A stretch of DNA of 64,000 bases from Megaustenia siamemsis. Lineage: Eukaryota > Mollusca > Gastropoda > Stylommatophora > Ariophantidae. This document shows positions 4,946 to 62,559 of this stretch, in pieces; position 1 is the first letter of the stretch; the number at the start of each line of letters is the position of its first letter. The translations under genes were made by a program, and so were the position numbers. Location: NCBI GenBank assembly GCA_032433765.1, contig JAVIAB010000092.1:101358064-101422063 (forward strand), given 5' to 3'. Below the pieces are notes generated by a model that was given only the letters and a program-made list of their open reading frames with translations, was not told the DNA's origin and made no database searches.

Positions 4946-5743
4946 GAAAGTGGATTGATAACTTAAATAGTTGGATTGATGACTTAAATAGTTGGATTGA
5001 TGACTTAAAAAGCTGGATTGATGACTTAAATAGTTGGATTGATGACTTAAATAGTTGGATTGATGACTTAAATAGTTGGATTGATGACTTAAATAGTTGG
5101 ATTGATGACTTAAATAGTTGGATTGATGACTTAAATAGCTGGATTTATGAATTAAATAGTTGGATTGATGACTTAAATAGTTGGATTGATGACTTAAATA
5201 GTTGGATTGATGACTTAAATAGTTGGATTGATGACTTAAATAGTTGGATTGATGACTTAAATAGCTGGATTGATGACTTAAATAGCTGGATTGATGACTT
5301 AAATAGCTGGATTGATAATTTAAATAGATGGATTAATGACTCAAATAGCTGGATTGATAACTTAAATAGTTGGATTGATGACTTAAATAGCTGGATTTAT
5401 GAATTAAATAGTTGGATTGATGACTTAAATAGTTGGATTGATGACTTAAATAGTTGGATTGATTACTTAAATAGTTGGATTGATGACTTAAATAGTTGGA
5501 TTGATGACTTAAATAGCTGGATTGATGACTTAAATAGCTGGATTGATGACAAAAATAGCTGGATTGATAACTTAAATAGATGGATTAATGACTCAAATAG
5601 CTGGATTGATAACTTAAATAGCTGGATTGATAACTTAAATAGCTGGATTGATAACTTAAATAGATGGATTGATGACTCAAATATCTGGATTGATAACTTA
5701 AATAGTTGGATTGATAACTTAAATAGCTGGATTGATGATTCGG
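4946..5743. repeat. 21-bp array, about 38 units
   Basis: Units read AGTTGGATTGATGACTTAAA plus T, with variants such as AGC for AGT, GATAAC for GATGAC and TTATGAATT for TTGATGACT. All units that I followed keep the 21-base length. On the plus strand one frame stays open throughout as a seven-residue repeat (S/R)WIDDLN, but it starts right after a TGA and has no ATG until past the array. Confidence 0.95.
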
Positions 5744-6348: not shown

Positions 6349-7042
6349 AAACATCACCCTGGTTATGTGAGTAGGTATCTGAAAGGGAAGACAAGCTGGT
6401 ACATAGGCATCAACCTGGTCATGTGAGTAGGTATTTGAAATGGAAGACAAGCTGGTACACAGATATCAACCTGGTTATGTGAGTAGGTATCTGAAAGGGT
6501 AGACAAGCTGGTACTTACACTAGTTAGCCTGGTTATGTAAGTACCTGAAAGGGTAGACAAGCAGGTACTTACACTAGTTAGCCTGGTTATGTAAGTACCT
6601 GAAAGGGAAGACAAGCTGGTACTTACACTAGTCAGCCTGGTTATGTAAGTACCTGAAAGGGAAGACAAGCTGGTACTTACACTAGTCAGCCTGGTTATGT
6701 AAGTACCTGAAAGGGAAGACAAGCTGGTACTTACACTAGTTAGCCTGGTTATGTAAGTACCTGAAAGGGTAGACAAGCTGGTACTTACACTAGTTAGCCT
6801 GGTTATGTAAGTACCTGAAAGGGTAGACAAGCTGGTACTTACACTAGTTAGCCTGGTTATGTAAGTACCTGAAAGGGTAGACAAGCAGGTACTTACACTA
6901 GTTAGCCTGGTTATGTAAGTATCTGAAAGGGTAGACAAGCTGGTACTTACACTAGTTAGCCTGGTTATGTAAGTACCTGAAAGGGAAGACAAGCTGGTAC
7001 TTACACTAGTTAGCCTGGTTATGTAAGTACCTGAAAGGGAAT
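6349..7042. repeat. 54-bp minisatellite, main part, about 12-13 units
   Basis: Units contain CTGGTTATGTAAGTACCTGA, AAGGGWAGACAAGCWGGTAC and TTACACTAGTTAGC. The first units are more diverged (GTGAGTAGGTATCTGAAA). The period is 18 codons, so the minus strand is open for 209 codons as a Ser/Thr-rich repeat (SLSTLSGTYITRLTSVST). I treat this as non-coding. Confidence 0.93.
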
Positions 7043-9054: not shown

Positions 9055-9655
9055 ACTTGTTACGTGAAGTTTTAACTTGTTACGTGAAGTTTTAACTTGT
9101 TACGTGAAGCTTTATCTTGTTGCGTGAAGCTTTAACTTGTTACGTGAAGTTTTAACTTGCTACGTGAAGTTTTAACTTGTTACGTTAAGCTTAAACTTGT
9201 TACGTGAAGCTTTAACTTGTTACGTGAAGTTTTAACTTGTTACGTGAAGCTTTAACTTGTTACGTGAAGCTTTAACTTGTTGCGTGAAGCTTTAACTTGT
9301 TACGTGAAGTTTTAACTTGCTACGTGAAGTTTTAACTTGTTACGTTAAGCTTAAACTTGTTACGTGAAGTTTTAACTTGTTACGTGAAGTTTTAACTTGT
9401 TACGTGAAGTTTTAACTTGTTACGTGAAGTTTTAACTTGTTACGTTAAGCTTAAACTTGTTACGTGAAGTTTTAACTTGTTACGTGAAGCTTGAACTTGT
9501 TACGTGAAGCTTGAACTTGTTACGTGTAGCTTTAATTTGTTACGTGAAGTTTTAACTTGTTACGTGAAGTTTTAACTTGTCACGTGAAGCTTTAACTTGT
9601 TAAGTGAAGCTTTAAATTGTTACGTGAAGCTTGAACTTGTTACGCGTAGCTTTAA
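9052..9655. repeat. 20-bp array, about 30 units, with 160-bp higher-order pattern
   Basis: Units read TTGTTACGTGAAGTTTTAAC with variants GCTTT, TGCG and CTACG. A run of variant units (GCTACG, then GTTAAGCTTAAA) recurs exactly 160 bases apart (about 9158 and 9318), so eight units form a higher-order unit. Confidence 0.95.
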
Positions 9656-10451
9656 CCAAACCATTTTTTCCTCTTTATATTTGTTCATTTCTCCCCACTG
9701 TTAGCTTCACTGTAGCTTCGCATTTCTTTGCCTTGACCCTACTATTCTCAACATTATTCTGTAATCACATAAATAATGTTCATGTCTGTTGTCCGATTGT
9801 TCAGGATTCACTTTCATATGTCGAGACTGGCCCTACACAACAATAATTTACTCTTTTTCCTACCCCCATTGACTAAAATTATGCGGTATAATATCTTGAT
9901 AATATTTTGGAATGTAGTCTTTACTTGAGGTCATTTCAGTTGTACAACTACAATCTGAAGTTAATATCGTTCTGGTATTTGAGTTTATTATCTGTTTTAA
10001 TGATGTGCCATTTACTTTCTTTGTTCCTTTATGAGTTTCTTTTTCTTTGTTGCAGTCATTATTTCTGTCTTAATTTACTGTTGAGGCTCAGACCTTTATT
10101 TGTACCTTCCATCACTATAAGACGAACCATTTATAAAACTCATTTTCACACTTAACAATTTAGACTGAGTCATCAGCATACCTCAGATTCTTAATTTTGT
10201 GACCAACGATTCCTATTCTGAGTTAGACCTTTATAGAACATAGTCAAATCTGCCGAACACAATATTTATCATAAAATAACCTCTATGCGTAACGGAAACC
10301 ATTGTCCCTTAATGCATTACCGGATGTACGTAGAATTACGGTTCTTTTCAGGTTGTACCCTATGGCGAAGGCGGAGTCTCTACACCAAAATCCATAAAAA
10401 AAATAACAATTATACCATGCAATTACAGATGTTGTTTATACATTTATATAT
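9656..10451. other. no gene seen
   Basis: T-rich sequence. A 26-base motif at 10361-10386 (TATGGCGAAGGCGGAGTCTC, then TACACC) recurs at 11273-11298, probably a scrap of a mobile element. Open frames here are short and unsupported. Confidence 0.5.
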
Positions 10452-18542: not shown

Positions 18543-19637
18543 AAGCTACCCTATGACAAGCTACCCTATGACAAGCTACCCTATGGCAAGCGACCCTATG
18601 ACAACCTACCCTATGGCAAGCTACCATATGGCAAGCTACCCTGTGGCAAGCTACCCTATTGCAAGCTACCCTATGGCAAGCTACCCTATGACAAGCTACC
18701 CTATGGCAAGCTACCCTATGACAAGCTACCCTATGACAAGCTACCCTGTGGCAAGCTACCCTATTGCAAGCTACCCTATGGCAAGCTACCCTATGACAAG
18801 CTACCCTATGACAAGCTACCCTATGGCAAGCTACCATATGGCAAGCTACCCTATTGCAAGCTACCCTATGGCAAGCTACCCTATGGCAAGCTACCATATG
18901 GCAAGCTACCATATGACAGGCTACCCTATGACAAGCTGCCCTATGACAAGCTACCCTATGACAGGCTACCCTATGACAAGCTACTCTATGACAAGATACT
19001 CTATGACAGGCTACCCTATGACAAGCTACTCTATGACAAGCTACCATATGACAAGCTACCCTATGACAGGCTACCCTATGACAGGCTACCCTATGACAAG
19101 CTACCTTATGACAGGCTACCCTAAGACAACCTACCCTATGACAACCTACCCTATGACAGGCTACCCTATGACAACCTACCCTATGACAGGCTACCCTATG
19201 ACAAGCTACCCTATGACAAGCTACCCTATGACAGGCTACCCTATGACAACCTACCCTATGACAGGCTACACTATGACAAGCTACCATATGACAAGCTACT
19301 CTATGACAAGCTACCCTATGACAAGTTACCCAATGACAAGCTACCCTATGACAACCTACCCTATGACAGGCTACCCTATGACAAGCTACCCTATGACAAG
19401 CTACCCTATGACAGGCTACCCTATGACAACCTACCCTATGACAGGCTACCCTATGACAAGCTACCATATGACAAGCTACTCTATGACAAGCCACCCTATG
19501 ACAAGTTACCCTATGACAGGCTACCCTATGACAAGCTACCCTATGACAAGCTACCCTATGACAGGCTACCCTATGACAGGCTACCCTATGACAAGCTACC
19601 CTATGACAGGCTACCCTATGACAAGCTACCCTATGAC
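18543..19637. repeat. 15-bp array, about 73 units, with higher-order patterns
   Basis: Units read AAGCTACCCTATGAC, with GGC, AGG and AAC variants. 19201-19260 and 19381-19440 are identical, so part of the array has a 180-bp higher-order unit; an earlier part repeats at about 105 bases. The period is five codons, which keeps long frames open on both strands (up to 397 codons). I do not regard them as genes. The right flank (about 19658-19695) resembles R5. Confidence 0.96.
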
Positions 19638-19779
19638 AGTGTCGCTGATTATCTACAGGGCATCTCACTCGCTTCAAAACCCGACATTTATTTAATAGTT
19701 GTACAGTAACCACTAACCAGGATGTTGCTAAAATATTTGAAGCGGGCTTACCCCATTTTGAAAGAAATGTGAAGCCATC

Positions 19780-28540: not shown

Positions 28541-29592
28541 ACCCACTCACGAGACACCTACTTCCGATTGTAGTGACTGCCTCACGAAACACCTACTTCC
28601 AATTGTAGTGACCGCCTCACGAGACCTACTTCCAATTGTAGTGGCTGCCTCACGAGACACCTACCTCCAATTGTGGTGACTGCCTCACGAGACACCTTCT
28701 TCCAATTGCAGTGACTGCCTCACGAGACACCTTCTTCCAATTGTAGTGACTGCCTCATGAGACACCAACTTCCAATTGTAGTGACTGCCTCACGAGACAC
28801 CTACTTCCAATTGTAGTGACTGCCTCACGAGACACCAACTTCCAATTGTAGTGACTGCCTCACGAGACACCTACTTCCAATTGTAGTGACTGCCTCACGA
28901 GACACCTACTTTCAATTGTAGTGACGGCCTCACGAGACACCTACTTCCAATTGTAGTGACTGTCTCACGAGACACCTACTTTCAATTGTAGTGGCTGCCT
29001 CACGAGACACCTACTTCCAATTGTAGTGACTGCCTCACGAGACACCTACTTCCAATTGTAGTGACTGCCTCACGAGACCTACTTCCAATTGTAGTGGCTG
29101 CCTCACGAGACACCTACCTCCAATTGTGGTGACTGCCTCACGAGACACCTTCTTCCAATTGCAGTGACTGCCTCACGAGACACCTTCTTCCAATTGTAGT
29201 GACTGCCTCATGAGATACCAACTTCCAATTGTAGTGACTGCCTCACGAGACACCTACTTCCAATGTAGTGACTGCCTCACGAGACACCAACTTCCAATTG
29301 TAGTGACTGCCTCACGAGACACCTACTTCCAATTGTAGTGACTGCCTCACGAGACACCTACTTTCAATTGTAGTGACGGCCTCACGAGACACCTACTTCC
29401 AATTGTAGTGACTGTCTCACGAGACACCTACTTTCAATTGTAGTGGCTGCCTCACGAGACACCTACTTCCAATTGTAGTGACTGCCTCACGAGACACCTA
29501 CTTCTAATTGTAGTGACTGACTCACGAGACACCTACTTCCAATTGTAGTGACTGACTCACGAGACACCTACTTCCAATTGTAGTGGCTGCCA
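28541..29592. repeat. 35-bp array, about 30 units, duplicated in a block of about 453 bp
   Basis: Units contain GACTGCCTCACGAGACACCT and ACTTCCAATTGTAGT. A marker series (a unit with CACGAGACCT, then ACCTCCAATTGTGG, then TTCTTCCAATTGCAG) occurs near 28618 and again near 29071, showing that about 13 units were duplicated together. Confidence 0.95.
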
Positions 29593-29654: not shown

Positions 29655-30352
29655 TTTATCTTGGGAGTAACAGCGACCTGGCGTGATAGCTTGGAAGTAA
29701 CAGCGGCCTGGCGTGATAGCTTGGAAGTAACAGCGGCCTGGCGTGATATCTTGGGAGTAACAGCGGCCTGGCGTGATATCTTTAGAGTAACAGCGGCCTG
29801 GCGTGATATCTTGGGAGTAACAGCGGCCTGGCGTGATATCTTGGGAGTAACAACGGCCTGGCATGATATCTTGGGAGTAACAGCGGCCTGGCGTGATATC
29901 TTGGGAGTAACAACAGCCTGGCGTTGTATCTTGGGAGTAACAGCGGCCTGGCGTGATATCTTGGGAGTAACAGCGGCCTGGCGTGATATCTTGGGAGTAA
30001 CAGCGGCCTGGCGTGATATCTTGGGAGTAACAACGGCCTGGCATGATATCTTGGGAGTAACAGCGGCCTGGCGTGATATCTTGGGAGTAACAGCGGCCTG
30101 GCGTGATATCTGGGGAGTAACAACAGCCTGGCGTGATATCTTGGGAGTAACAGCGGCCTGGCGTGATATCTTGGGAGTAACAGCGGCCTGGCGTGATATC
30201 TTGGGAGTAACAACGGCCTGGTATGATATCTTGGGAGTAACAGCGGCCTGGCGTGATATCTTGGGAGTAACAGCGGCCTGGCGTGATATCTTGGGAGTAA
30301 CAGCGGCCTGGCGTGATATCTTGGGAGTAACAACAGCCAGGCGTGATATCTT
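29655..30352. repeat. 30-bp array, about 23 units, derived from SINE-1
   Basis: Units contain GTAACAGCGGCCTGGCGTGA and TATCTTGGGA. The core resembles SINE-1's GTAAAGCGGCACGGGCGTAA, and the last unit runs straight into the following SINE-1 bases (GATACCGACCAC). A 180-bp pattern (six units) repeats at 29821, 30001 and 30181. The period is ten codons, so both strands have frames of about 250 codons; not genes. Confidence 0.95.
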
Positions 30353-30470
30353 GGGATACCGACCACTTCACCCAAAAATGTGTTGCGGTCATGGAATAAA
30401 AATATAGTCACAGACACCATATTGCACTTAGCAAGGCGTGGAGGGAACCGTTACATCTTTTACTTTACCG
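30353..30470 (+). mobile_element. SINE-1 3' tail downstream of the 30-bp array
   Basis: TACCGACCACTTCACCCAAA, AATATAGTCACAGACACCATATT and a worn GGCGTGGAGGG-TTTTACTTTA end match the order of SINE-1's last third. Confidence 0.7.
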
Positions 30471-32795: not shown

Positions 32796-35500
32796 TTGGA
32801 GAAAATTATTGTGGAGATATGGTACTTGGTAGATGTGAGAGGAAGACCATGGAGAAAATTATTGTGGAGATATGGTACTTGGTAGATGTGAGAGGAAGGC
32901 CAGGGAGAAAACGATTGTGGAGATATGGTACTTGGTAGATGTGAGAGGAAGGCCAGGGAGAAAATTATTGTGGATATATGGTACTTGGTAGATGTGAGAG
33001 GAAGGCCAGGGAGAAAATTATTGTGGATATATGGTACTTGGTAGATATGGGAGAGGAAGGCCAGGGAGAAAATTATTGTGGAGATATGGTACTTGGTAGA
33101 TGTGAGAGGAAGGCCAGGGAGAAAATTATTGTGGAGATATGGTACTTGGTAGATGTGAGAGGAAGACCAGGGAGGTAATTATTGTGGAGATATGGTACTG
33201 GGTAGATGTGAGAGGAAGGCCAGGGAGAAAATTATTGTGGAGATATGGTACTAGGTAGATGGGAGAGGAAGACCAGGGAGGTAATTATTGTGGAGATATG
33301 GTACTTGGTAGATGTGAGAGGAAGGCCAGGGAGAAAATTATTGTGGAGATATGGTACTTGGTAGATGTGAGAGGAAGGCCAGGGAGAAAATTATTGTGGA
33401 GATATGGTACTTGGTAGATGTGAGAGGAAAACCAATGAGAAAATTATTGTGGATATATGGTACTTGGTAGATGTGAGTGGATGACCAGGGAGGTAATTAT
33501 TGTGGAGATATGGTACTGGGTAGATGTGAGAGGAAGACCAAGGAGAAAATTATTGTGGATATATGGTACTTGGTAGTTGTGAGAGGAAGACCAATGAGAA
33601 AATTATTGTGGATATATGGTACTTGGTAGATGTGAGAGGAAGACCAATGAGAAAATTATTGTGGATATATGGTACTTGGTAGATGTGAGAGGAAGACCAA
33701 TGAGAAAATTATTGTGGATATATAGTACTTGGTAGATGTGAGAGGAAGACCAATGAGAAAATTATTGTGGATATATGGTACTTGGTAGATGTGAGAGGAA
33801 GACCAATGAGAAAAATTATTGTGGATATATGGTACTTGGTAGATGTGAGAGGAAGACCAATGAGAAAATTATTGTGGATATATGGTACTTGGTAGATGTG
33901 AGAGGAAGACCAATGAGAAAATTATTGTAGATATATAGTACTTGGTAGATGTGAGAGGAAGACCAATGAGAAAAATATTGTGGATATATGGTACTTGGTA
34001 GATGTGAGAGGAAGACCAATGAGAAAATTATTGTGGATATATGATACTTGGTAGATGTGAGAGGAAGACCAATGAGAAAATTATTGTGTAGATATGATAC
34101 TTGGTAGATGTGAGAGGAAGACCAATGAGAAAATTATTGTGGAGATATGGTACTTGGTAGATGTGAGAGGAAAGACCAGGGAGGTAATTATTGTGGAGAT
34201 ATGGTACTTGGTAGATGTGAGGGGAAGACCAAGGAGAAAATTATTGTGGAGATACGGTACTTGGTAGATGTGAGAGGAAGACCAAGGAGAAAATTATTGT
34301 GGAGATATGGTACTTGGTAGATGTGAGAGAAAGACCAAGAAGAAAATTATTGTGGAGATATAGTACTTGGTAGATGTGAGAGAAAGACCAAGAAGAAAAT
34401 TATTGTGGAGATATGGTACTTGGTAGATGTGAGAGGAAGACCAAGGATAAAATTATTCTGGAGATATGGTACTTGGTAGATGTGAGAGGAAAACCAGTGA
34501 GAAATTTATTGTGGAGATATGGTACTTGGTAGAAGTAAGAGGAAGACCAATGAGAAAATTATTGTGGAGATATGGTACTTGGTAGAAGTGAGAGGAAGAC
34601 CAATGAGAAAATTATTGTGGAGATATGGTACTTGGTAGATGTGAGAGGAAGAGCAATGAGAAAATTATTGTGGAGATATGGTACTTGGTAGAAGTGAGAG
34701 GAAGACCAATGAGAAAATTATTGTGGAGATATGGTACTTGGTAGATGTGAGAAGAAGACCAATGAGAAAGTTACTGTGGAGATATGGTTCTTGGTAGATG
34801 TGAGAGGAAGACAAGTGAGAAAATTATTGTGGAGATATGGTACTTGGTAGATGTGAGAGGAAGACTAGTGAGAAAATTATTTTGGAGATATGATACTTGG
34901 TAGATGTGAGAGGAAGACTAGTGAGAAAATTACTGTGGAGATATGGTACTTGGTAGATGTGAGAGGAGGACCAATGAGAAAATTACTGTGGAGATATGAT
35001 ACTTGGTAGATGTGAGAGGAGGACGAATGAGAAAATTACTGTGGAGATATGATACTTGGTAGATGTGAGAGGAGGACGAATGAGAAAATTACTGTGGAGA
35101 TATGGTACTTGGTAGATGTGAGAGGAGGACCAATGAGAAAATTACTGTGGAGATATGATACTTGGTAGATGTGAGAGGAGGACGAATGAGAAAATTACTG
35201 TGGAGATATGATACTTGGTAGATGTGAGAGGAGGACGAATGAGAAATTATTGTGGAGATATGGTACTTGGTAGATGTGAGAGGAGGACCAATAAGAAAAT
35301 TATTGTGGAGATATGGTACTTGGTAGATGTGAGAGGAAGACCAATGAGAAAATTACTGTGGAGATATAGTACTTGGTAGATGTGAGAGGAAGACCAATGA
35401 GAAAATTACTGTGGAGATATAGTACTTGGTAGATGTGAGAGGAAGACCAATGAGAAAATTACTGTGGAGATATAGTACTTGGTAGATGTGAGATGAGGAC
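32796..35500. repeat. 53-bp array, left part, about 51 units
   Basis: Units contain GAGAAAATTATTGTGGAGAT, ATGGTACTTGGTAGATGTGA and GAGGAAGACCAAT. Variants are clustered: CCAGGG near the left, CCAATG with GGATATATGG in the middle, GAGGACGAATGAG and ATTACTG toward the right, suggesting local homogenisation. The giant palindrome is inserted at the right edge, and the array resumes in the same orientation at 45761. Confidence 0.95.
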
Positions 35501-36305
35501 AGTAGTATATCAGGAAGGATTTGACCCGCATTTGGACCGTAAATTAACAAAGATATATAGTAGGTGCGCGGCGCACCTAATGTACCGTAGGTGCAGGGGG
35601 AGTTAACCATGATAGCTCGTTTCGAGGTGTTGACCTCTAGTCCCGGTGACCCCGGAAGTGACGTGTTTATGTTTGGTATAGGCTGACTTTGGTGTACTTG
35701 AGCGATAGTGATAGGTTAGTAGATTATACAACATCAGGTTTCTCATAATGAGGTTTCTTCTGGGCGCCTAATGTACTGTAGGCGCAGGGGGAGTTAACTG
35801 TAACATTTCGTGTCGGGATGTTGACTGGGGGTGTCTGTCGGCGTGACCTCGGCGCTCCGTATTTTAAAAATTCCGAATTATTTTTTAACTGTGACATTTC
35901 GTGTCGGGATGTTGACTGGGGGTGTCTGTCGGCGTGACCTCGGCGCTCCGTATTTTAAAAATTCCGAATTATTTAAAAAAAAACAGTCTCCATCTGATTT
36001 CGAACACGGGTCTACGGCGTGCCAGGCCAGACACTTACCACTATGCTACAGGCGATCACATAATTAGAGGCTGAATGAGACAGGTGAATCGTGATGCTTT
36101 TGTTGGTACCTGACAGCTAGCTAGTAGTAGAGAAAGATTGACCCGCATTTAGGAGCTAAATTAACGAAGATATATAGGGCGGCGCCCCGCGCGCATAACG
36201 CGTGCGGCGGAGGGGGAGTTATCCGTGATATTTCATGTCGGGATACCCGGTGACCTCTCGTTGACCTCTCAACCTCTCGGCGCCATGGTCGGGGTGAGCT
36301 CTCGC
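35501..36305. repeat. left terminal domain of the palindrome
   Basis: A TTGACCCGCATTT ... TTAAC(A/G)AAGATATATAG ... GGGGGAGTTA(A/T)CC signature occurs at the tip (from about 35519) and again at about 36129, with a partial third at about 35765 (TAGGCGCAGGGGGAGTTAAC). Around the signature are short perfect palindromes such as TAGGTGCGCGGCGCACCTA. A block of about 95 bases (CATTTCGTGTCGGGATGTTG ... CCGAATTATTT) is duplicated in tandem between 35805 and 35975. It is markedly more GC-rich than the surroundings. Confidence 0.9.
35987..36055 (-). other. tRNA-like sequence in left arm
   Basis: Mirror image of 45207-45275. See that entry for boxes and anticodon-like loop. Confidence 0.55.
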
Positions 36306-39300
36306 CGTATGTATGTCATGTCGAGGTAGTAGACACGTATGTCATGTCATTGTAACAGGCATGTCAATGTAACAGTCATTTCGTTGTAATAGTCATCTCG
36401 TTGTAACAGTCACGTGTGTCATGTCGTTTTATCAGAGACGTATGGTATGTCGTTGTAACAGTCATTTCGTTGTAATAGGCATCTCGTTGTAACAGTCACG
36501 CATGGCATGTCGTTTTATCAGACACGTATGGTATGTCGTTGTAACAGACATGTTGTTGTATCAGTCATGTCGATGTAGTAGACACGTATATCATGTCATT
36601 GTAACAGTCATGTCAATGTAACAGTCATGTCAATGTAACAGACATTTCGTTGTAATAGTCATCTCGTTGTAACAGTCACGTATGTCATGTCGTTCTATCA
36701 GACACGTATGGTATGTCGTTGTAAAAGACATGTCGTTGTATCAGTGATGTCGATGTAGTAGACACGTATGTCATGTCATTGTAACAGGCATGTCAATGTA
36801 ACAGTCATGTCAATGTAACAGGCATTTCGTTGTAATAGTCATCTCGTTGTAACAGTCACGTATGTCATGTCGTTTTATCAGACACGTATGACATGTCGTT
36901 GTAACAGACATGTCGTTGTATCAGTCATGTTGATGTAGTAGACACGTATGTCATGTCATTGTAACAGTCATGTCAATGTAAAAGTCATGTCAATGTAACA
37001 GTCATTTCGTTGTAATAGTCATCTCGTTATAACAGTCACGTATGTCATGTCGTTTTATCAGAGACGTATGGTATGTCGTTGTAACAGACATGTCGTTGCA
37101 TCAGTCATGTCGATGTAGTAGACACGTATGTCATGTCGTTGTAACAGACACGTATGGTATGTCGTTGTAACAGACATGTCGTTGTATCAGGCATGTCGAT
37201 GTAGTAGACACGTATATCATGTCATTGTAACAGTCATGTCAATGTAACAGTCATGACAATGTAACAGGCATTTCGTTGTAATAGTCATCTCGTTGTAACA
37301 GTCACGTATGTCATGTCGTTTTATCAGACACGTATGGCATGTCGTTGTAACATACATGTCGTTGTATCAGTCATGTCGATGTAGTAGACACGTATGTCAT
37401 GTCATTGTAACAGTCATGTCAATGTAACAGTCATGTCAATGTAACAGTCATTTCGTTGTAATAGTCATCTCGTTGTAACAGTCACGTATGTCATGTCGTT
37501 TTATCAGAGACGTAGGGTATGTTGTTGTAACAGACATGTCGTTGCATCAGTCATGTCGATGTAGTAGACACGTATGTCATGTCGTTGTAGCAGACACGTA
37601 TGGTATGTCGTTGTAACAGACATGTCGTTGTATCAGGCATGTTGATGTAGTAGACACGTATGTCATGTCATTGTAACAGTCATGTCAATGTAACAGTCAT
37701 GACAATGTAACAGGCATTTCGTTGTAATAGTCATCTCGTTTTAACAGTCACGTATGTCATGTCGTTTTATCAGACACGTATGGTATATCGTTGTAACAGA
37801 CATGTCGTTGTATCAGTCATGTCGATGTAGTAGACATGTATGTCATGTCATTGTAACAGTCATGTCAATGTAACAGTCATTTTCAATGTAACAGTCATTT
37901 CGTTGTAATAGTCATCTCGTTGTAACAGTCACGTATGTCATGTCGTTTTATCAGACACGTATGGTATATCGTTGTAACAGACATGTCGTTGTATCAGTCA
38001 TGTCGATGTAGTAGACATGTATGGCATGTCAATGTAACAGTCATGTCAATGTAACAGTCATTTTCAATGTAACAGTCATTTCGTTGTAATCGTCATCTCG
38101 TTGTAACAGTCACGTATGTCATGTTGTTTTATCAGAGACGTATGGTATGTCGTTGTAGCAGACATGTCGTTGTATCAGGCATGTCGATGTAGTAGACACG
38201 TATGTCATGTCATTGTAACAGTCATGTCAATGTAACAGTCATTTCGTTGTAATAGGCATCTCTTTGTAACAGACACGTATGTCATGTAGTTTTATCAGAC
38301 ACGTATGGTATGTCGTTGTAACAGACATGTCGTTGTATCAGGCATGTCGATGTAGTAGACACGTATGTCATGTCATTGTAACAGTCATGGCAATGTAACA
38401 GTCATATCAATGTAACAGACATTTCGTTGTAATAGTCATCTCGTTGTAACAGTCACAGATGGCATGTCGTTTTATCAGACACGTATGGTATGTCGTTGTA
38501 ACAGACATGTCGTTGTATCAGTCATGTCGATGTAGTAGATACGTATGTCATGTCATTGTAACAGTCATGTCAATGTAACAGTCTTGTCAATGTAACAGTC
38601 ATTTCGTTGTAATAGTCATCTCGTTGTAACAGGCACGTATGTCATGTCGTTTTATCAGAGACGTATGGTATGTCGTTGTAACAGACATGTCGTTGTATCA
38701 GTCATGTCGATGTAGTAGACACGTATGTCATGTCATTGTAACAGTCCTGTCAATGTAACAGTCATGTCAATGTAACAGTCATTTCGTTGTAATAGTCATC
38801 TCGTTGTAACAGTCACGTATGGCATGTCGTTTTATCAGACACGTATGGCATGTCGTTGTAACAGACATGTCGTTGTATCAGTCATGTCGACGTAGTAGAC
38901 ACGTATGCCATGTCATTGTAACAGTCATGTCAATGTAACAGTCATGCAAATGTAACAGTCATTTCGTTGTAATAGTCATCTCGTTGTAACAGTCACGTAT
39001 GTCATGTCGTTTTATCAGAGACGTATGGTTTGTCGTTGTAACAGACATGTCGTTGCATCAGGCATGTCGATGTAGCAGACACGTATGTTACGTCGTTGTA
39101 TGGTATGTCGTTGTAACAGACATGTCGTTGTATCAGGCATGTCGATGTAGTAGACACGTATGTCATGTCATTGTAACAGTCATGTCAATGTAACAGTCAT
39201 GACAATGTAACAGGCATTTCGTTGCAATAGTCATCTCGTTGTAACAGTCACGTATGTCATGTCTTTTTATCAGATACGTATGACATGTCGTTGTAACATA

Positions 39301-40566
39301 CATGTCGTTGTATCAGTCATGTCGATGTAGTAGACACTTATGTCATGTCATTGTAACAGGCATGTCAATGTAACAGTCATGACAATGTAACAGGCATTTC
39401 GTTGTAATAGTCATCTCGTTGTAACAGTCACGTATGTCATGTCGTTTTATCAGAGACGTATGGTATGTCGTTGTAACAGACATGTCGTTGCATCAGTCAT
39501 CTCGATGTAGTAGACACGTATGTCATGTCGTTGTAACAGACACGTATGGTATGTCGTTGTAACAGACATGTCGTTGTATCAGGCATGTCGATGTAGTAGA
39601 CACCTATGTCATGTCATTGTAACAGTCATATCAATGTAACAGTCATGACAATGTAACAGGCATTTCGTTGTAATAGTCATCTCGTTGTAACAGTCACGTA
39701 TGTCATGTCGTTTTATCAGACACGTATGGTATATCGTTGTAACAGACATGTCGTTGTATCAGGCATGTCGATGTAGTAGACACGTATGGCATGTCATTGT
39801 AACAGTCATGTCAATGTAACAGTCATGTCAATGTAACAGTCATTGCGTTGTAATAGTAATCTCGTTGTAACAGGCACGTATGTCATGTCGTTTTATCAGA
39901 GACGTATGGTATGTCGTTGTAACAGACATGTCGTTGTAGCAGGCATGTCGATGTAGTAGACACCTATGTCATGTCATTGTAACAGTCATGTCAATGTAAC
40001 AGTCATTTCGTTGTAATAGTCATCTCGTTGTAACAGACACGTATGTCATGTCGTTTTATCAGACACGTATGGTATGTCATTGTAACAGACATGTCGTTGT
40101 ATCAGTCATGTCGATGTAGTAGACACGTATGTCATGTCATTGTAACAGTCATGTCAATGTAACAGTCATGTCAATGTAACAGTCATTTCGTTGTAATAGT
40201 CATCTCGTTGTAACAGTCACGTATGTCATGTCGTTTTATCAGACACGTATGGTATGTCGTTGTAACAGACATGTCGTTGTATCAGTCATGTCGATGTAGT
40301 AGACACGTATGTCATATCATTGTAACAGTCATGTCAATGTAACAGTCATGTCAATATAACAGTCATTTCGTTGTAATAGTCATCTCGTTGTAACAGTCAC
40401 GTATGTCATGTCGTTTTATCAGAGACGTATGGTATGTCGTTGTAACAGACATGTCGTTGTATCAGTCATGTCCATGTAGTAGACACGTATGTCATGTCAT
40501 TGTAACAGTCATGTCAATGTAACAGTCATTTCGTTGTAATAGTCGGCTTGTTGTAACAGACACGTT
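36306..40566. repeat. 180-bp higher-order satellite, left arm, about 23-24 units
   Basis: The basic word is 17 bases, (G)(T/A)CATGTCGTTGTAACA and variants. Nine such words plus three 9-base inserts (GACACGTAT or GTCACGTAT, GAGACGTAT) make 180 bases. Word order within the unit is fixed (NNTTTTATCA, TTGTATCA, GATGTAGTA, ATTGTAACA, AATGTAACA, TTTCGTTGTAATA, CTCGTTGTAACA). Some units lack one word or carry an extra TTGTAACA-CACGTAT block. Confidence 0.95.
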
Positions 40567-40893
40567 GGTCACCAGTACAATGAGTATTCTGTTATTGGAT
40601 CATAGGTCACAATCTATTTTTAGTAACTAATCAGGTATTGCATCAGAGATCAAAATCTATTTTTAGTAACTCAACATCCCCATTATAGGGGAACTGAGTA
40701 ACACCATCTCTTTTTGTGAAAATTTCAGATTTCAATGCTGGCGCAAAAAGAGATGGTGTTACTCAGTTCCCCTATAATGGGGATGTTGAGTTACTAAAAA
40801 TAGATTTTGATCTCTGATGCAATACCTGATTAGTTACTAAAAATAGATTGTGACCTATGATCCAATAACAGAATACTCATTGTACTGGTGACC
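40567..40893. repeat. central core of the palindrome: 150-bp arms around a 27-bp spacer
   Basis: 40567-40716 and 40744-40893 are reverse complements. The innermost arm bases are CACCATCTCTTTTTG / CAAAAAGAGATGGTG. The spacer (TGAAAATTTCAGATTTC ...) is the only asymmetric part. The core holds two copies of AATCTATTTTTAGTAACT per arm. As single-stranded DNA or RNA it would form a very long hairpin. Confidence 0.95.
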
Positions 40894-43800
40894 AACGTGT
40901 CTGTTACAACGAGCCGACTATTACAACGAAATGACTGTTACATTGACATGACTGTTACAATGACATGACATACGTGTCTACTACATCGACATGACTGATA
41001 CAACGACATGTCTGTTACAACGACATACCATACGTCTCTGATAAAACGACATGACATACGTGACTGTTACAACGAGATGACTATTACAACGAAATGACTG
41101 TTATATTGACATGACTGTTACATTGACATGACTGTTACAATGATATGACATACGTGTCTACTACATCGACATGACTGATACAACGACATGTCTGTTACAA
41201 CGACATACCATACGTGTCTGATAAAACGACATGACATACGTGACTGTTACAACGAGATGACTATTACAACGAAATGACTGTTACATTGACATGACTGTTA
41301 CATTGACATGACTGTTACAATGACATGACATACGTGTCTACTACATCGACATGACTGATACAACGACATGTCTGTTACAATGACATACCATACGTGTCTG
41401 ATAAAACGACATGACATACGTGTCTGTTACAACGAGATGACTATTACAACGAAATGACTGTTACATTGACATGACTGTTACAATGACATGACATAGGTGT
41501 CTACTACATCGACATGCCTGCTACAACGACATGTCAGTTACAACGACATACCATACGTCTCTGATAAAACGACATGACATACGTGCCTGTTACAACGAGA
41601 TTACTATTACAACGCAATGACTGTTACATTGACATGACTGTTACATTGACATGACTGTTACAATGACATGCCATACGTGTCTACTACATCGACATGCCTG
41701 ATACAACGACATGTCTGTTACAACGATATACCATACGTGTCTGATAAAACGACATGACATACGTGACTGTTACAACGAGATGACTATTACAACGAAATGC
41801 CTGTTACATTGTCATGACTGTTACATTGACATGACTGTTACAATGACATGACATAGGTGTCTACTACATCGACATGCCTGATACAACGACATGTCTGTTA
41901 CAACGACATACCATACGTGTCTGTTACAACGACATGACATACGTGTCTACTACATCGAGATGACTGATGCAACGACATGTCTGTTACAACGACATACCAT
42001 ACGTCTCTGATAAAACGACATGACATACGTGACTGTTACAACGAGATGACTATTACAACGAAATGCCTGTTACATTGTCATGACTGTTACATTGACATGC
42101 CTGTTACAATGACATGACATAAGTGTCTACTACATCGACATGACTGATACAACGACATGTATGTTACAACGACATGTCATACGTATCTGATAAAAAGACA
42201 TGACATACGTGACTGTTACAACGAGATGACTATTGCAACGAAATGCCTGTTACATTGTCATGACTGTTACATTGACATGACTGTTACAATGACATGACAT
42301 ACGTGTCTACTACATCGACATGCCTGATACAACGACATGTCTGTTACAACGACATACCATACAACGACGTGACATACGTGTCTACTACATCGACATGCCT
42401 GATGCAACGACATGTCTGTTACAACGACAAACCATACGTCTCTGATAAAACGACATGACATACGTGACTGTTACAACGAGATGACTATTACAACGAAATG
42501 ACTGTTACATTTACATGACTGTTACATTGACATGACTGTTACAATGACATGACATACGTGTCTACTACGTCGACATGACTGATACAACGACATGTCTGTT
42601 ACAACGACATGCCATACGTGTCTGATAAAACGACATGACATACGTGACTGTTACAACGAGATGACTATTACAACGAAATGACTGTTACATTGACATGACT
42701 GTTACATTGACAGGACTGTTACAATGACATGACATACGTGTCTACTACATCGACATGACTGATACAACGACATGTCTGTTACAACGACATACCATACGTC
42801 TCTGATAAAACGACATGACATACGTGCCTGTTACAACGAGATGACTATTACAACGAAATGACTGTTACATTGACAAGACTGTTACATTGACATGACTGTT
42901 ACAATGACATGACATACGTGTCTACTACATCGACATGCCTGATACAACGACATGTCTGTTACAACGACATACCATACGTGTCTGATAAAACTACATGACA
43001 TACGTGTCTGTTACAAAGAGATGCCTATTACAACGAAATGACTGTTACATTGACATGACTGTTACAATGACATGACATACGTGTCTACTACATCGACATG
43101 CCTGATACAACGACATGTCTGCTACAACGACATACCATACGTCTCTGATAAAACAACATGACATACGTGACTGTTACAACGAGATGACGATTACAACGAA
43201 ATGACTGTTACATTGAAAATGACTGTTACATTGACATGACTGTTACCTTGACATGCCATACATGTCTACTACATCGACATGACTGATACAACGACATGTC
43301 TGTTACAACGATATACCATACGTGTCTGATAAAACAACATGACATACGTGACTGTTACAACGAGATGACTATTACAACGAAATGACTGTTACATTGAAAA
43401 TGACTGTTACATTGACATGACTGTACATTGACATGCCATACATGTCTACTACATCGACATGACTGATACAACGACATGTCTGTTACAACGATATACCATA
43501 CGTGTCTGATAAAACGACATGACATACGTGACTGTTAAAACGAGATGACTATTACAACGAAATGCCTGTTACATTTTCATGACTGTTACATTGACATGAC
43601 TGTTACAATGACATGACATACGTGTCTACTACATCAACATGCCTGATACAACGACATGTCTGTTACAACGACATACCATACGTGTCTGCTACAACGACAT
43701 GACATACGTGTCTACTACATCGACATGACTGATGCAACGAGATGTCTGTTACAACAACATACCCTACGTCTCTGATAAAACGACATGACATACGTGACTG

Positions 43801-44954
43801 TTACAACGAGATGACTATTACAACGAAATGACTGTTACATTGACATGACTGTTACAATGACATGACATACGTGTCTACTACATCGACATGACTGATACAA
43901 CGACATGTATGTTACAACGACATGCCATACGTGTCTGATAAAACGACATGACATACGTGACTGTTACAACGAGATGACTATTACAACGAAATGCCTGTTA
44001 CATTGTCATGACTGTTACATTGACATGACTGTTACAATGACATGATATACGTGTCTACTACATCGACATGCCTGATACAACGACATGTCTGTTACAACGA
44101 CATACCATACGTGTCTGTTACAACGACATGACATACGTGTCTACTACATCGACATGACTGATGCAACGACATGTCTGTTACAACGACATACCATACGTCT
44201 CTGATAAAACGACATGACATACGTGACTGTTATAACGAGATGACTATTACAACGAAATGACTGTTACATTGACATGACTTTTACATTGACATGACTGTTA
44301 CAATGACATGACATACGTGTCTACTACATCAACATGACTGATACAACGACATGTCTGTTACAACGACATGTCATACGTGTCTGATAAAACGACATGACAT
44401 ACGTGACTGTTACAACGAGATGACTATTACAACGAAATGCCTGTTACATTGACATGACTGTTACATTGACATGCCTGTTACAATGACATGACATACGTGT
44501 CTACTACATCGACATCACTGATACAACGACATGTCTTTTACAACGACATACCATACGTGTCTGATAGAACGACATGACATACGTGACTGTTACAACGAGA
44601 TGACTATTACAACGAAATGTCTGTTACATTGACATGACTGTTACATTGACATGACTGTTACAATGACATGATATACGTGTCTACTACATCGACATGACTG
44701 ATACAACAACATGTCTGTTACAACGACATACCATACGTGTCTGATAAAACGACATGCCATGCGTGACTGTTACAACGAGATGCCTATTACAACGAAATGA
44801 CTGTTACAACGACATACCATACGTCTCTGATAAAACGACATGACACACGTGACTGTTACAACGAGATGACTATTACAACGAAATGACTGTTACATTGACA
44901 TGCCTGTTACAATGACATGACATACGTGTCTACTACCTCGACATGACATACATA
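40894..44954. repeat. 180-bp higher-order satellite, right arm
   Basis: Reverse complement of the left-arm satellite, with the same rare variants in the same order (for example AAAACTACATG at about 42985 mirrors CATGTAGTTTT at about 38285). It is about 200 bases shorter. One unit present on the left (with CACAGATGGCATG at about 38454) has no counterpart. Confidence 0.95.
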
Positions 44955-45760
44955 CGGCGAGAGCTCACCCCGACCATGGCGCCGAGAGGTTGAGAGGTCA
45001 ACGAGAGGTCACCGGGTATCCCGACATGAAATATCACGGTTAACTCCCCCTCCGCCGCACGCGTTATGCGCGCGGGGCGCCGCCCTATATATCTTCGTTA
45101 ATTTAGCTCCTAAATGCGGGTCAATCTTTCTCTACTACTAGCTAGCTGTCAGGTACCAACAAAAGCATCACGATTCACCTGTCTCATTCAGCCTCTAATT
45201 ATGTGATCGCCTGTAGCATAGTGGTAAGTGTCTGGCCTGGCACGCCGTAGACCCGTGTTCGAAATCAGATGGAGACTGTTTTTTTTAAATAATTCGGAAT
45301 TTTAAAAATACGGAGCGCCGAGGTCACGCCGACAGACACCCCCAGTCAACATCCCGACACGAAATGTCACAGTTAAAAAATAATTCGGAATTTTTAAAAT
45401 ACGGAGCGCCGAGGTCACGCCGACAGACACCCCCAGTCAACATCCCGACACGAAATGTTACAGTTAACTCCCCCTGCGCCTACAGTACATTAGGCGCCCA
45501 GAAGAAACCTCATTATGAGAAACCTGATGTTGTATAATCTACTAACCTATCACTATCGCTCAAGTACACCAAAGTCAGCCTATACCAAACATAAACACGT
45601 CACTTCCGGGGTCACCGGGACTAGAGGTCAACACCTCGAAACGAGCTATCATGGTTAACTCCCCCTGCACCTACGGTACATTAGGTGCGCCGCGCACCTA
45701 CTATATATCTTTGTTAATTTACGGTCCAAATGCGGGTCAAATCCTTCCTGATATACTACT
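44955..45760. repeat. right terminal domain of the palindrome
   Basis: Mirror of 35501-36305 with only a few differences (for example AACCGTGAT versus ATCCGTGAT on comparison strands; 8 versus 9 bases in an A/T run near 45280). Confidence 0.9.
45207..45275 (+). other. tRNA-like sequence with A and B boxes in right arm
   Basis: TGTAGCATAGTGGTAAGTG fits box A, and CCGTGTTCGAAATC fits box B, at normal spacing. A CTGGC/GCCGT-type stem with loop CTGGCAC would place GGC (Ala) as anticodon. The 3' acceptor half is not clean, so this is more likely a SINE head captured by the element, or a Pol III promoter, than a working tRNA. It is present once per arm and nowhere else in this window. Confidence 0.55.
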
Positions 45761-46025
45761 GAGGACCAATGAGAAAATTATTGTGGAGATATTGTACTTG
45801 GTAGTTGTGAGAGGAAGACCAATGAGAAAATTATTGTGGAGATATGGTACTTGGTAGATGTGAGAGGAAGACCAATGAGAAAATTTTTTTGGAGATATGG
45901 TACTTGGTAGATGTGAGAGGAAGACCATTGAGAAAATTACTGTGGAGATATGGTAATTAGTAGATGTGAGTTCGAAGACCAAGGAGAAAATTATTGTGGA
46001 GATATGGTACTTGGTAGATGTGAGA
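45761..46025. repeat. 53-bp array, right part, about 5 units
   Basis: Resumes with GAGGACCAATGAGAAAATTA in the same orientation as the left part. Confidence 0.93.
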
Positions 46026-46249: not shown

Positions 46250-46500
46250 AAAGTAAAGAGCCCCCGCCATGCCAAGTGGCGTATAGGAAATATAGTGTTA
46301 TTGACCATATATTTTACAGACCTTCGGCACATGATTTTTGGGGTAATGTGGTCGGTATTACGCCCGTGTCGATATACTTTCCCAGAAAAAAATCAGGTGC
46401 CCATTCAAGGCTGGGTAAACCCGAAAGCAGTTGGTTGGGATCGGACCCTACCTTTTGTCCTTTGTAGTCCAGTTCACTAACCGCTGAGCTATCGCGGCCC
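46250..46500 (-). mobile_element. SINE-1
   Basis: Antisense copy with box A (GCGATAGCTCAGCGG) and a worn box B (GGTCCGATCCCAAC), same body and tail. ATATATT occurs near both ends but sits in AT-rich sequence, so the duplication is uncertain. Confidence 0.9.
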
Positions 46501-46566
46501 CATATATTATTTTAGTAATTAATAAATAATAATAAATAAATTATATTATATTATGTAATAAATAAT

Positions 46567-48094: not shown

Positions 48095-48350
48095 AGTTAA
48101 AGTAAAGTACCCCCCTCACGCCAAGTGGCGCATAGGGAAATATGGTGTTAGTGACCCTATATTTTACATACTTTCAGCACATGATTTTTGGGGTAATGTG
48201 GTCGGTATTACGCCCGTGCTGCTTTACTTTCCCAGAAAAAAATCCGGTACCCATTTAAGGCTGCGTGAACCCAGAAGCCGTCGGTTGGGATCGAACCCTG
48301 TCCCTTGTCCTTTGTAGTCCAGTTCACTAACCACTGTGCTATCGCGGCTC
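48095..48350 (-). mobile_element. SINE-1, full-length, with target-site duplication
   Basis: GACAATAATAATAGTAA at 48078-48094 and 48351-48367. Good box A (CGATAGCACAGTGG) and box B (GGGTTCGATCCCAAC) on the minus strand. Part of the duplication is simple (AAT)n, so its length is uncertain. Confidence 0.93.
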
Positions 48351-48952
48351 GACAATAATAATAGTAATAATAAATTATATTTCTTATGAAGAAGTATGCA
48401 CAATGGGAAAAAAATAATAGAATCATTGAAAGATAACAGTAACTAGTATTATTACTATGAAACAGCGTAGCCTGAAATGGTACGTATGTGTGTTAAGCTT
48501 TCAAGACTGGCTAAAATAATAGTGCAGAAAACTGATTAGTGGGTTTAAAGAAGGCAGTAATACTTAGAGTTGGGAGGACAACAGCAACAAGCAGGCAGGA
48601 CTAATTCACCGAATCTCATACAACAGTGAAGTTGGTACGGGTGAAAACAATAACAGTAGATATATATTCACATCTGATATGCAACGGTTAGGGGATGGCA
48701 ATAGTCAAGTTGAAAATGATAAATATCAGGTTACAACAAGAAAAGGTAGATAAACAAAACTAAAAGCTACAGTTATATTCTAAATAAAAGCAACGCTATA
48801 CAACTGGCTTGTCTACGCAAAATGCAATACTTTCTCTCTACAATACTTCACAGTAAATGCAGTAGAACAAAACAAAAATAATAATATCATAATGATGATA
48901 GAATTTAACAATTTGTAAGTGAAGGCTACATAAAAGACAAATAAGTAAGTAA
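48351..48952. other. no gene seen
   Basis: AT-rich; nothing recognised. Confidence 0.5.
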
Positions 48953-49196
48953 GTAAAGAGCCACGTCACGCCAAGTGGCGTATAAGGAATATGGTGTTAG
49001 TGACATTAATATTTATAGACTGTCTGGACATAATTTTTGAGTTAATGTGATCGGTATTACACCCGTGCTGATTTACTTTCCCAGAAAAATGTCGGTACCC
49101 ATTTAAGGCTGGGTGAACATGAAAGTCATCGATCAGGATCGAACCTCTAGTCCTTTGTAGTCTAGTTCATTAACGACTGAGCTATCGCGGCTCCCC
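48953..49196 (-). mobile_element. SINE-1, diverged copy
   Basis: Box A (GGAGCCGCGATAGCTCAGTC) is intact; box B region is shortened (GAGGTTCGATCCTGATC). The flanks AAGACAAATAAGTAA and AAGAAGCAAATAAATAA look like a worn duplication. Confidence 0.9.
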
Positions 49197-50438: not shown

Positions 50439-50692
50439 GGGAGCCGCGATAGTGGTTAGTGAACTGGACTACAAAGGTCAAGGGATAGGGTTAGATCCCA
50501 ACCGACGGCTTCCGGGTTCACCCAACCTTTAATGGGTACCGGATTTTTTTCTGGGAATGTGAAGCGGCACGGGCGTAATACCGACCACATTACCCCAAAA
50601 ATCATGTGCTGAAGGTCAGTAAAATTTATGGTCACTAACACCATATACCCTATGCGTCACTTGGCGTGACGGGGGTACTTCACTTTACTTTT
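50439..50692 (+). mobile_element. SINE-1, with 12-bp target-site duplication
   Basis: ATATCGGAACTC at 50425-50436 and 50693-50704. Head GGGAGCCGCGATAGTGGTTA has lost CTCA inside box A, which should weaken its Pol III promoter. Body and tail are close to consensus. Confidence 0.94.
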
Positions 50693-50704
50693 ATATCGGA
50701 ACTC

Positions 50705-59955: not shown

Positions 59956-60833
59956 ATAACTGAATTCGACCTTGACACTCCCTTTTCTTATTTTGAGAAT
60001 AGGAGAAACTCTTCAAATTTTCAGGGCAGCAATCACTTGGTCAATTCAGGAACATCAAGCCGGCAAAGACAGGACAGTGACATCATTCATGTCAACCGTT
60101 GGGCAAAGCAGAACAACAAGTTCTTGCTGTCGAAGAAATCACCTTTATTATCATCACAGTAACCTGTGATGTCTGTTCTGCCGCCGTCAACTATCGTTCA
60201 GTTCTAAATTCATGATCCAGGCGACAGTCGATGGCGATGACGATCAGGTTCTATGTTAAAGTGTCGAGCCTCGCCAAAGGACACATATACGCCGAGAACA
60301 CAGACAGATAGATAAATATATTTTATCGTATTAATTTTAACTCATTTAAATGGCTGCCTTAGGCATGTCAGTGTTGAGAACAAATAATTTAAGTGGTCTT
60401 TGGCTTTTACTTTATTCTCGCACACGCATTTCGTCTCAGACGTACAGTGAAACACTGGTACCTGACTTAAGAAGGGATTATACAAATAAAGTAAAGTTGG
60501 AAAAGTACATACTCTTACTTTCAACAATTAAACCTTCGCAATGTTTTGAAAAAAATAGCAGGTGTGTGTGTGTGTGTGTGTGTGCGTGCGTGTGTGCGTG
60601 CGTGTGTGTGTGTGTGGAAGTACTAGAGTCTTTCTGAGGTCCAGTGTTCACAACACGACTTAATAAACCTAGTTCAAATAATGCATAGTTGGGAGGTATC
60701 CTTATGATTGCAGAATATATGAAATCGAGTGCATATCATTATCGGAAGCGAACTATACAAATGTAAATCTCGTGTACAAATTACTGATTGTAGACTGCCG
60801 AGAAAATATATATATATTTATAAGGGAGCCGCG
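59956..60833. other. no gene; (GT)n at 60561-60617
   Basis: Frames at 59908-60169 start in the LINE-C tail and show no domain. A GT microsatellite with GC interruptions follows. Confidence 0.55.
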
Positions 60834-61078
60834 ATAGCTCAGTGGTTAGTGAACTGGACTGCAAAGGACAAGAGGTAGGGTTCGATCCCAACCGACGGCT
60901 CCGGTTCACCCAGCCTTTAATTGGTACCGGATTTTTTTCTGGGAAAGTAAAGCGGCACGGTGCGTAATACCGACCACATTACCCCAAAAATAATGTGCTG
61001 AAGGTCTGTAAAATCTATGGTCACTAACATCATATTCCCTATACGCCACTTGGCGTGACGGGGGTACATTACTTTTTT
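60834..61078 (+). mobile_element. SINE-1
   Basis: GGGAGCCGCGATAGCTCAGT and GGGTTCGATCCCAACC are near-perfect A and B boxes. Tail CACTTGGCGTGACGGGGGTA, CATTACTTTTTTAC. The flanks are (TA)n on both sides, so a target-site duplication cannot be told from the microsatellite. Confidence 0.94.
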
Positions 61079-62559
61079 ACTATATATATATATCCAAGTG
61101 GCAGTTGAAAGTAAGTTATGTGGTAGAATCCATTTAACAACATAGTAGAGGTTTGAGCACTTGAGAACTGGATCTGAGCACTTGAGAACTGGACCTTTGT
61201 GCAGTGATTATGCTGATGATTGTCCTGTTGACTTGAAACTGAAACTAATCTGGAAATTAAAATTTTGCATCAAACACCAGAATTTATTTCTTAAAAATGT
61301 CATGATTTGAAAATCTCAGGTCCACATTTTTCGTTACTACAAACTTCCTATAATATTAATTTTTTTCATGTTCATTGTTATAATTCTCATATTCTAATAA
61401 CCATAAATAACATTGTTTCATAACGAATAATATCAATTTAATTATTATATTTTTATAATTTTCAGCGGGGAGAGAGCGGGTGTGTGTGGGTAATTCCCTC
61501 CAAAGCCCAGAAAGAAATCCTGATTTTGTGAGCCTCGCTATGGGAGATCATTAATGATGCACGGCTCAATCAACTACGGTCTGCATGATCATGAGAGAAT
61601 ATTCAAGCAGTGAGCTGTTTCATATGATTTGTTAGCCCTTGCCTTGGCACTTTAAACTGTAACGATTGTTACAAAATGAATACAATTATATTATGTATGT
61701 TATATGTAACGACGATGAAATCTCATTAGACTAGTTGGACGATGGATTTTTCTTTGGTGTACATCTTCATAACACATATACTCGTACATAAAACAGACAC
61801 ACGAATATAATTGGGTACCTAAACATATACATAAATATATGTCAGTGACTGTTTGTAATGCGATGTTGCAGTTACGTTTTTCTCTAGTTCATGTATCATC
61901 TGTTTAACGCTATTTCCAGACTTGACAATGGAAACACTGATAATCTCCCTTGTTCGTATATTACTTCCCTGCAACACAATTACATTTTCTGTCTGGGAGG
62001 GAACAATGGCGCCTGGTAGCCAAATTTAGTCCAGTATAAACACTACTAAATCATTTAAACACAATCACATTGGTCAAACGTTTTTAGCGTTAGTTTGTGT
62101 TTATTCAGCACTTTGCCCCTACTTCTAAAAGATCATAGGGTGCCCACATTCAGAAAGAAAAAGAAGAAAGAAAAAAATCCACGTCACGTCTTTAATGTGG
62201 AATTTGGGGGATATTTGTGCCAATATTTTTCTGACCAGGCGTTTTGGTTTTACTCTTTAGGTAACGTGGTCAGCATAATGTCATTGATGTGTGTCTTTGC
62301 TCCTGAATATATCTTACATTCACTGAATTCAGTGTCAACCGGTTTTCGTTGGGTAGAATTTGATTTATTGTCTAGAAATGCCCATTCCACTAATCAATAA
62401 CTCTAAAAGTGATGCGACCTACTATTCTTAGAAAAGGACTGTAGTAATAGCCGTCCATCTCAATTAACTAGCACATAGATTGGGATTTGTGTTGTTGCAA
62501 CTCTATTGTATGTGTGCGGCGCTGACTGTAAGAATGAAACAATAAGACAGTAAAATACA
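61079..62559. other. no gene seen
   Basis: AT-rich; small direct repeat GAGCACTTGAGAACTGGA twice near 61152-61192. Frame at 62095-62400 has no domain. Confidence 0.5.

Follow-up and report, generated by a model that had tools for sequence, protein, structure and literature searches.

Mavericks, or Polintons, have been proposed to connect transposons with DNA viruses, and to our knowledge their replication has hardly been observed. Palindromic defective genomes, in which both ends are the same protein-primed origin and the interior is an inverted duplication, are known from adenoviruses and linear plasmids. In vertebrate Mavericks, 6-base-pair (bp) target duplications have been reported, together with 5'-(AGT)2//(ACT)2-3' as the commonest conserved ends (PMC8097293), and among the proteins encoded by Polintons are a retroviral-like integrase and a protein-primed polymerase (PMC6431247). 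Among foldback elements, Tetris of Drosophila virilis has been described with 8-10 bp duplications, ~220-bp tandem repeats inside its inverted repeats, a variable middle domain and three structurally complete copies, and membership of the Mutator superfamily was suggested in that study (PMC4079207). In this study, we report the analysis of a 10.26-kb palindrome at positions 35501-45760 of a 64,000-nucleotide stretch, hereafter the window, of the gastropod Megaustenia siamemsis (assembly GCA_032433765.1, contig JAVIAB010000092.1, positions 101,358,064 to 101,422,063 of the forward strand), and compare it with these systems.

The left arm of the palindrome (35501-40716) is 5216 bp long and the right arm (40744-45760) 5017 bp. 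Global alignment of one arm against the other gave 5000 identities and 17 mismatches over 5017 aligned positions, with four gaps of 1, 17, 1 and 180 bp, the last corresponding to one satellite period. The element starts with AGTAGTATATCAGG at 35501 and finishes with CCTGATATACTACT at 45760. Each arm is made up of an outer terminal domain of ~0.62 kb, an inner, diverged second copy of the terminal sequence, a satellite of 4.0-4.2 kb whose 180-bp period was confirmed in both arms, and one half of a central hairpin of ~350 bp. No open reading frame of at least 150 amino acids (ATG, GTG or TTG start) overlaps the element. These results agree with a preliminary description made from the letters of the window, which had reported the near-perfect palindrome with its arm lengths, its ends, a 27-base spacer and GAGGAC on both sides, the 180-bp higher-order satellite of both arms and the lack of a visible coding frame. 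It had also held that excision restores a normal unit of the surrounding tandem array, and this was borne out: when the element and one GAGGAC were removed, six of six unit spacings in the joined flanks were 53 bp. Because GAGGAC is present eight times in the left 53-bp array itself, the flanking hexamers alone are weak evidence at this locus, and the restored array register is better evidence of insertion than the GAGGAC pair.

The preliminary description had proposed a search of the assembly (2.59 Gb) with positions 35501-36305. This search returned 40 scored matches among 4466 first-look candidates and revealed a family with the same ends. Fifteen elements were read, the window copy included; they are named after their contig labels (C41, C116a, C151 and so forth, C116 having copies a and b), and the right end was not reached in C106 and in the copy at C91:127079404. 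The ends AGTAGTATA//TATACTACT and an exact 6-bp target duplication were found in all 13 elements with both ends read, which lie on 11 contigs, and the 13 duplications represent 12 different hexamers, with GACACT occurring twice. The C41 copy is also inserted in a tandem array, as is the window copy. Among 11 elements whose arms were measured, arm length ranged from 2.9 to 7.0 kb; C123, which carries nested insertions, was excluded.

Exact genome matches to a 24-bp word from the terminal domain numbered 1238 in the forward and 1222 in the reverse orientation, against 0 and 0 for the reversed control. The first 100 places of this word were listed, covering all of contig C1, where 76 of the 92 matches form 38 head-to-head (+/-) pairs separated by 2.9-14.7 kb (median 10.7 kb); 16 matches are unpaired, and one tail-to-tail (-/+) neighbour pair is less than 25 kb apart. 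Halving the word count and multiplying by 10.7 kb, with C1 assumed to be typical, gives an estimate of ~1,200 element equivalents occupying ~13 Mb, or ~0.5% of the 2.59-Gb assembly. Mis-assembly of long palindromes can occur, and a reading of the locus as an assembly artefact, or as a local inverted duplication of the satellite array rather than a mobile element, is nevertheless highly improbable in view of the exact ends and target duplications in 13 of 13 elements on 11 contigs, the head-to-head arrangement of 76 of the 92 end words on C1, and the undisturbed register of the 53-bp target. A near-perfect palindrome of 5 kb does not arise by chance, and the existence of further copies, each flanked by a separate duplication, tells against a local artefact; the palindrome belongs to a mobile family.

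The family shares with Mavericks the length of the target duplication (6 bp in 13 of 13 elements), the (AGT)2//(ACT)2 end motif contained in AGTAGTATA//TATACTACT, and long terminal inverted repeats, the arms here spanning the whole element. Maverick-like elements are also present in the genome. The Pfam polymerase family PF03175 was matched 12 times in this genome and not at all in 14 control genomes. A Maverick-like element of 19,847 bp at C137:9133274-9153120 is flanked on both sides by the duplication AAGTTG and has a ~190-bp inverted repeat starting AGTAGATG (AGTAGA); its polymerase frame of 1025 amino acids matches DNA_pol_B_2 and Endonuclease_7, and an A32-like ATPase lies on the other strand. 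This polymerase had 7403 relatives at E<=0.001 among 7993 candidates scored, and among the 120 matches listed all those with a named organism are animal proteins. Within the genome it gave 74 matches at 35 places by our own count (45 scored of 4025 candidates), many of them interrupted by stops, and the two polymerase searches together point to about 40 polymerase loci.

We therefore consider that the palindrome is probably a non-autonomous, fully palindromic Maverick/Polinton derivative moved by Maverick machinery. The coding content by which a Maverick is recognised (protein-primed DNA polymerase B, integrase, ATPase, protease and capsid) is lacking in the window copy, so that the palindrome can only be a non-autonomous derivative of such an element. 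When 170 queries, comprising polymerase relatives and frames of at least 100 amino acids from parts of the C137 and C154 loci, were compared by tblastn with the palindrome copies read, matches were obtained only in C123, in a diverged relative on C1 (L088) and outside the C59 element, and were taken by eye as retroelement or dispersed-repeat sequence.

Several observations weigh against a Maverick derivation. The inverted repeat of the palindrome was not found on any Maverick-like locus checked, these being nine of the ~40 polymerase loci, most of them covered only in part. The C137 and C154 elements were read through and have ends that differ from those of the palindrome; a few kb at the presumed polymerase-side end in C124, C1, C41 and C105 held nothing like the palindrome end; and the repeat was not found in the surroundings of the polymerase match in C100, C125 and C87. 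On C1, the listed end words lie at least ~161 kb from any polymerase match. The C137 end, AGTAGA, differs from (AGT)2 at the sixth base, and ungapped comparison of its first 34 bases with the palindrome ends gave 18 shared bases for the window copy and fewer for the other ends. Beyond the 6-bp motif the similarity is weak: the end of the window subfamily and that of C137 agree at 13 of 28 positions (shuffle p 0.014), and for the six ends tested the uncorrected shuffle p was >0.05 in four and <0.05 in two. Pfam scans of 20 C137 frames recognised no family of integrases, proteases or capsid proteins, and the integrase that would move the palindrome is therefore assumed from the element type.

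The preliminary description had taken the absence of genes to imply a separate source of enzyme. This is reasonable. The genome does contain Maverick-like elements, but of the few checked none bore the inverted repeat of the palindrome, and the autonomous partner is therefore inferred. The element in C154 was considered as this partner and rejected, since its ends differ. It is a 19-kb element (C154:55887686-55906775) with a DNA_pol_B_2 match, a P-loop ATPase-like motif recognised by eye and another type of inverted repeat, and the flanks on its two sides repeat each other over ~280 bp. At the few loci checked no partner shared the inverted repeat, as would also be expected if the family were a lineage with its own undescribed transposase which had converged on 6-bp duplications and AGT-type ends. 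We regard such convergence as improbable, since it calls for a new enzyme although the genome holds an element of a known type whose end motif and duplication length fit.

FB and Galileo have very long, repeat-rich inverted arms, as the palindrome does; their duplication length and superfamily differ, and we know of no Maverick ends on either. The palindrome likewise has the long inverted repeats with internal tandem repeats that characterise foldback elements, the frame in which the preliminary description had placed it. Its layout resembles that described for Tetris in having a terminal flanking domain, tandem repeats within the inverted repeats and a middle domain, without an open reading frame and as a non-autonomous element (PMC4079207). 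This resemblance, together with the absence of a recognised Maverick integrase from the C137 element, would suit a foldback element of the FB, Galileo and Tetris kind, mobilised by a DDE transposase of Mutator or other type, with AGTAGT ends that are coincidental and denote no Maverick kinship. We consider this unlikely: the duplication is 6 bp in 13 of 13 elements, in contrast to the 8-10 bp given for Tetris (PMC4079207) and expected of a foldback element of the Mutator superfamily, the end motif fits Mavericks, and a Maverick-like element ending in AGTAGA exists in the genome. As first put, the foldback frame is not supported; both the 6-bp duplication and the (AGT)2 ends fit Mavericks/Polintons. 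Tetris as described differs further in its repeat length (~220 bp, against 180 bp here), its variable middle domain and its three structurally complete copies.

If the palindrome is a Maverick derivative, each arm would present a Maverick-type end at its outer tip, followed by satellite up to the conserved central hairpin. A Maverick integrase would join these ends to the target, and the protein-primed polymerase of the Maverick would probably copy the palindrome from its two identical ends. The displaced single strand, being self-complementary, could then fold into a hairpin of ~5 kb, in which mismatch repair, or recopying, might keep the two arms alike. The founder may have arisen by snap-back copying, by analogy with the palindromic defective genomes of other protein-primed replicons. 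Those of adenoviruses and linear plasmids are extrachromosomal by-products, whereas the palindromes are integrated, in an estimated ~1,200 copies. We tentatively propose, as a possibility about which doubt prevails, the whole of this scheme: a gene-free hairpin satellite parasite of a virus-like transposon, replicated by the Maverick polymerase, with its arms corrected by strand folding, that has become a substantial family of the host.

Comparison of the copies bears on the age and upkeep of the palindrome. Of the 15 copies, 13 retain a recognisable central hairpin on both sides, C151 retains it on one side only and C116a lacks it. The 27-bp spacer was found in 11 of the 15, in either orientation and in some with substitutions, and has been lost in copies C91b and C154; since this asymmetric spacer is common to the subfamilies, the palindrome arose before they separated. 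Changes specific to a subfamily nevertheless occur in both arms. One stem pair of a GC-rich hairpin inside the terminal domain is T-A in 25 of 29 aligned ends and C-G in the remaining 4, which belong to two elements. In the terminal domains, C151 has 5 differences between its own ends and at least 22 to any other copy, and C116b has 3 against 15 to the nearest other copy; in the other 11 of the 13 elements compared, the own partner and the closest end of another element lie at similar distances (1-4 differences in each case). Whole arms were compared in 13 elements, two right arms being incomplete; C123 and C151, parts of which are nested or rearranged, were excluded. The best match was the own partner for both arms in C41, C116a, C116b and C106 (4 of 13) and for one arm only in C124 and the window copy; in the remaining seven elements it was the own partner for neither arm. 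These distances indicate that, in some lineages at least, the arms have been homogenised in the long run but not at each transposition; the window copy belongs to a recent burst.

Two results of this comparison count against the proposed upkeep of the arms by Maverick replication. In the young subfamily, the arms within a copy are no closer than the arms of different copies, so that individual transposition events do not rebuild the palindrome. The centre of C116a is new, a 35-bp loop inside the satellite with what we read as a 4-bp GAGA microhomology at the switch; this centre fits snap-back copying and may have arisen in that way, and a deletion across the older centre would yield an identical product. 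Set against the whole of C124, the arms of C116a showed a higher identity (Fisher p 0.005), which was considered as a sign of fresh recopying, but the difference vanished once only the corresponding stretch was compared: in the homologous outer part of the C124 arms there is 1 difference in 2513 positions, against 3 in 2941 in C116a. As the outer stretch of C124 is equally alike, arm identity does not separate recopying from centre deletion.

In Repbase names, N denotes a non-autonomous element. Gene-less Polintons as such appear to be known already by name, Polinton-1N1_DR being a named zebrafish Polinton family (PMC9341505) that is likened to the palindrome here by its name only. The palindromes differ from Mavericks/Polintons in having no long frames, in being inverted repeat throughout and filled with satellite, and in an inverted repeat that is not common to the C137 or C154 element. 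Their arms of 2.9-7.0 kb compare with inverted repeats of 46-1447 bp given for intact vertebrate Mavericks (PMC8097293). The preliminary description had inferred that a foldback-like element with both arms filled by a 180-bp higher-order satellite was novel. The tandem-repeat arms of Tetris provide a precedent for satellite-filled arms (PMC4079207). No report of a Maverick-type element forming one continuous palindrome, or of a Maverick with a higher-order satellite, was found among the papers listed in searches of mostly open-access literature. Gene-less Polintons and repeat-filled foldback arms are each known; it is for the combination of Maverick-type ends, full palindrome and satellite arms that no report was found among those papers.

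A gene-less palindrome whose two ends are identical and of Maverick type would serve as a minimal reporter of the sequences that the integrase and polymerase need, and would also report whether single-stranded hairpins form during replication. With more than 1,000 estimated copies, arm-to-arm homogenisation, loss of the centre and the rise of new centres become directly countable. The family further shows how a higher-order satellite can be spread over many chromosomal sites by a transposon, and represents a large source of 5-kb hairpin DNA and of potential double-stranded RNA.

The features of the window copy and its insertion site are collected in Table 1.

Table 1. Features of the palindromic element and its target in the window
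Feature	Position	Strand	Remark
53-bp tandem array left of insertion	32799..35500	+	host target
Left target-site duplication	35495..35500	.	GAGGAC
Whole palindromic element	35501..45760	.	ends AGTAGTATA//TATACTACT
Outer terminal domain, left arm	35501..36122	+	begins with (AGT)2
GC-rich hairpin	35561..35579	+	TAGGTGCGC-G-GCGCACCTA; inside terminal domain
91-bp tandem duplication, left arm	35794..35974	+	
Inner diverged second terminal-sequence copy, left arm	36123..36340	+	starts AGTAGTAG
Satellite, left arm	36341..40544	+	180-bp higher-order period on ~17-26 bp base
Central domain, left half	40545..40716	+	
27-bp asymmetric spacer	40717..40743	.	hairpin loop
Central domain, right half	40744..40900	-	
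Satellite, right arm	40901..44921	-	
Inner second terminal-sequence copy, right arm	44922..45139	-	read from sequence
Outer terminal domain, right arm	45140..45760	-	contains 91-bp duplication at 45287-45467
Right target-site duplication	45761..45766	.	GAGGAC
Same 53-bp array right of insertion	45764..46025	+	

The inner terminal copy is 73% identical to the outer one across outer positions 21-141. A second, diverged Maverick-like end lies inside the first, at 36123 and its mirror 45139, which gives the impression that the element gained a new terminus beyond an older one. Each terminal domain also contains a tRNA-like stretch (35985-36060 on the minus strand, with its mirror at 45200-45276 on the plus strand), in which near-consensus A and B boxes followed by a T run were seen by eye; ARAGORN made no call on it in the modes tried. 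In the central hairpin, eight Rfam matches within 40671-40789, all to microRNA families and all below gathering scores, were dismissed as chance hairpin matches.

Terminal patterns of the family were also sought in IMG/VR, where a 20-mer had 0 matches and a loose pattern of 15 fixed bases had 41, which were taken as chance. In C123 (C123:99469425-99487179), one family palindrome is nested in another: the outer pair of ends shares GTCATG, the nested copy has its own left end, its right end was not found, and the outer copy also holds apparent retroelement sequence. The diverged relative on C1, from C1:89892492 onward (L088:93-620), has the end (AGT)3ATA, one triplet more than the other ends read, and its end word has three occurrences ~16 kb apart on that contig. 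This triple, at 89892534, 89908608 and 89924685, was considered as a tandem of a coding element and rejected, since the 9.6 kb read consisted of a diverged palindrome arm followed by apparent retroelement or dispersed-repeat sequence.

Many long minisatellite arrays, with units of 15-54 bp that differ between arrays, occupy window positions 1-36000, for example at 21-416, 4951-5738, 6371-7041, 9055-9656, 18543-19638, 28546-29591 and 29657-30356. To the right of the palindrome, a dispersed repeat is present in five copies, at 46262-46501, 48112-48351 and 48961-49194 on the plus strand and, inverted, at 50451-50696 and 60813-61085. It has a tRNA-like stretch at one end and, in our reading, looks like a tRNA-derived short interspersed element (SINE) family of the host.

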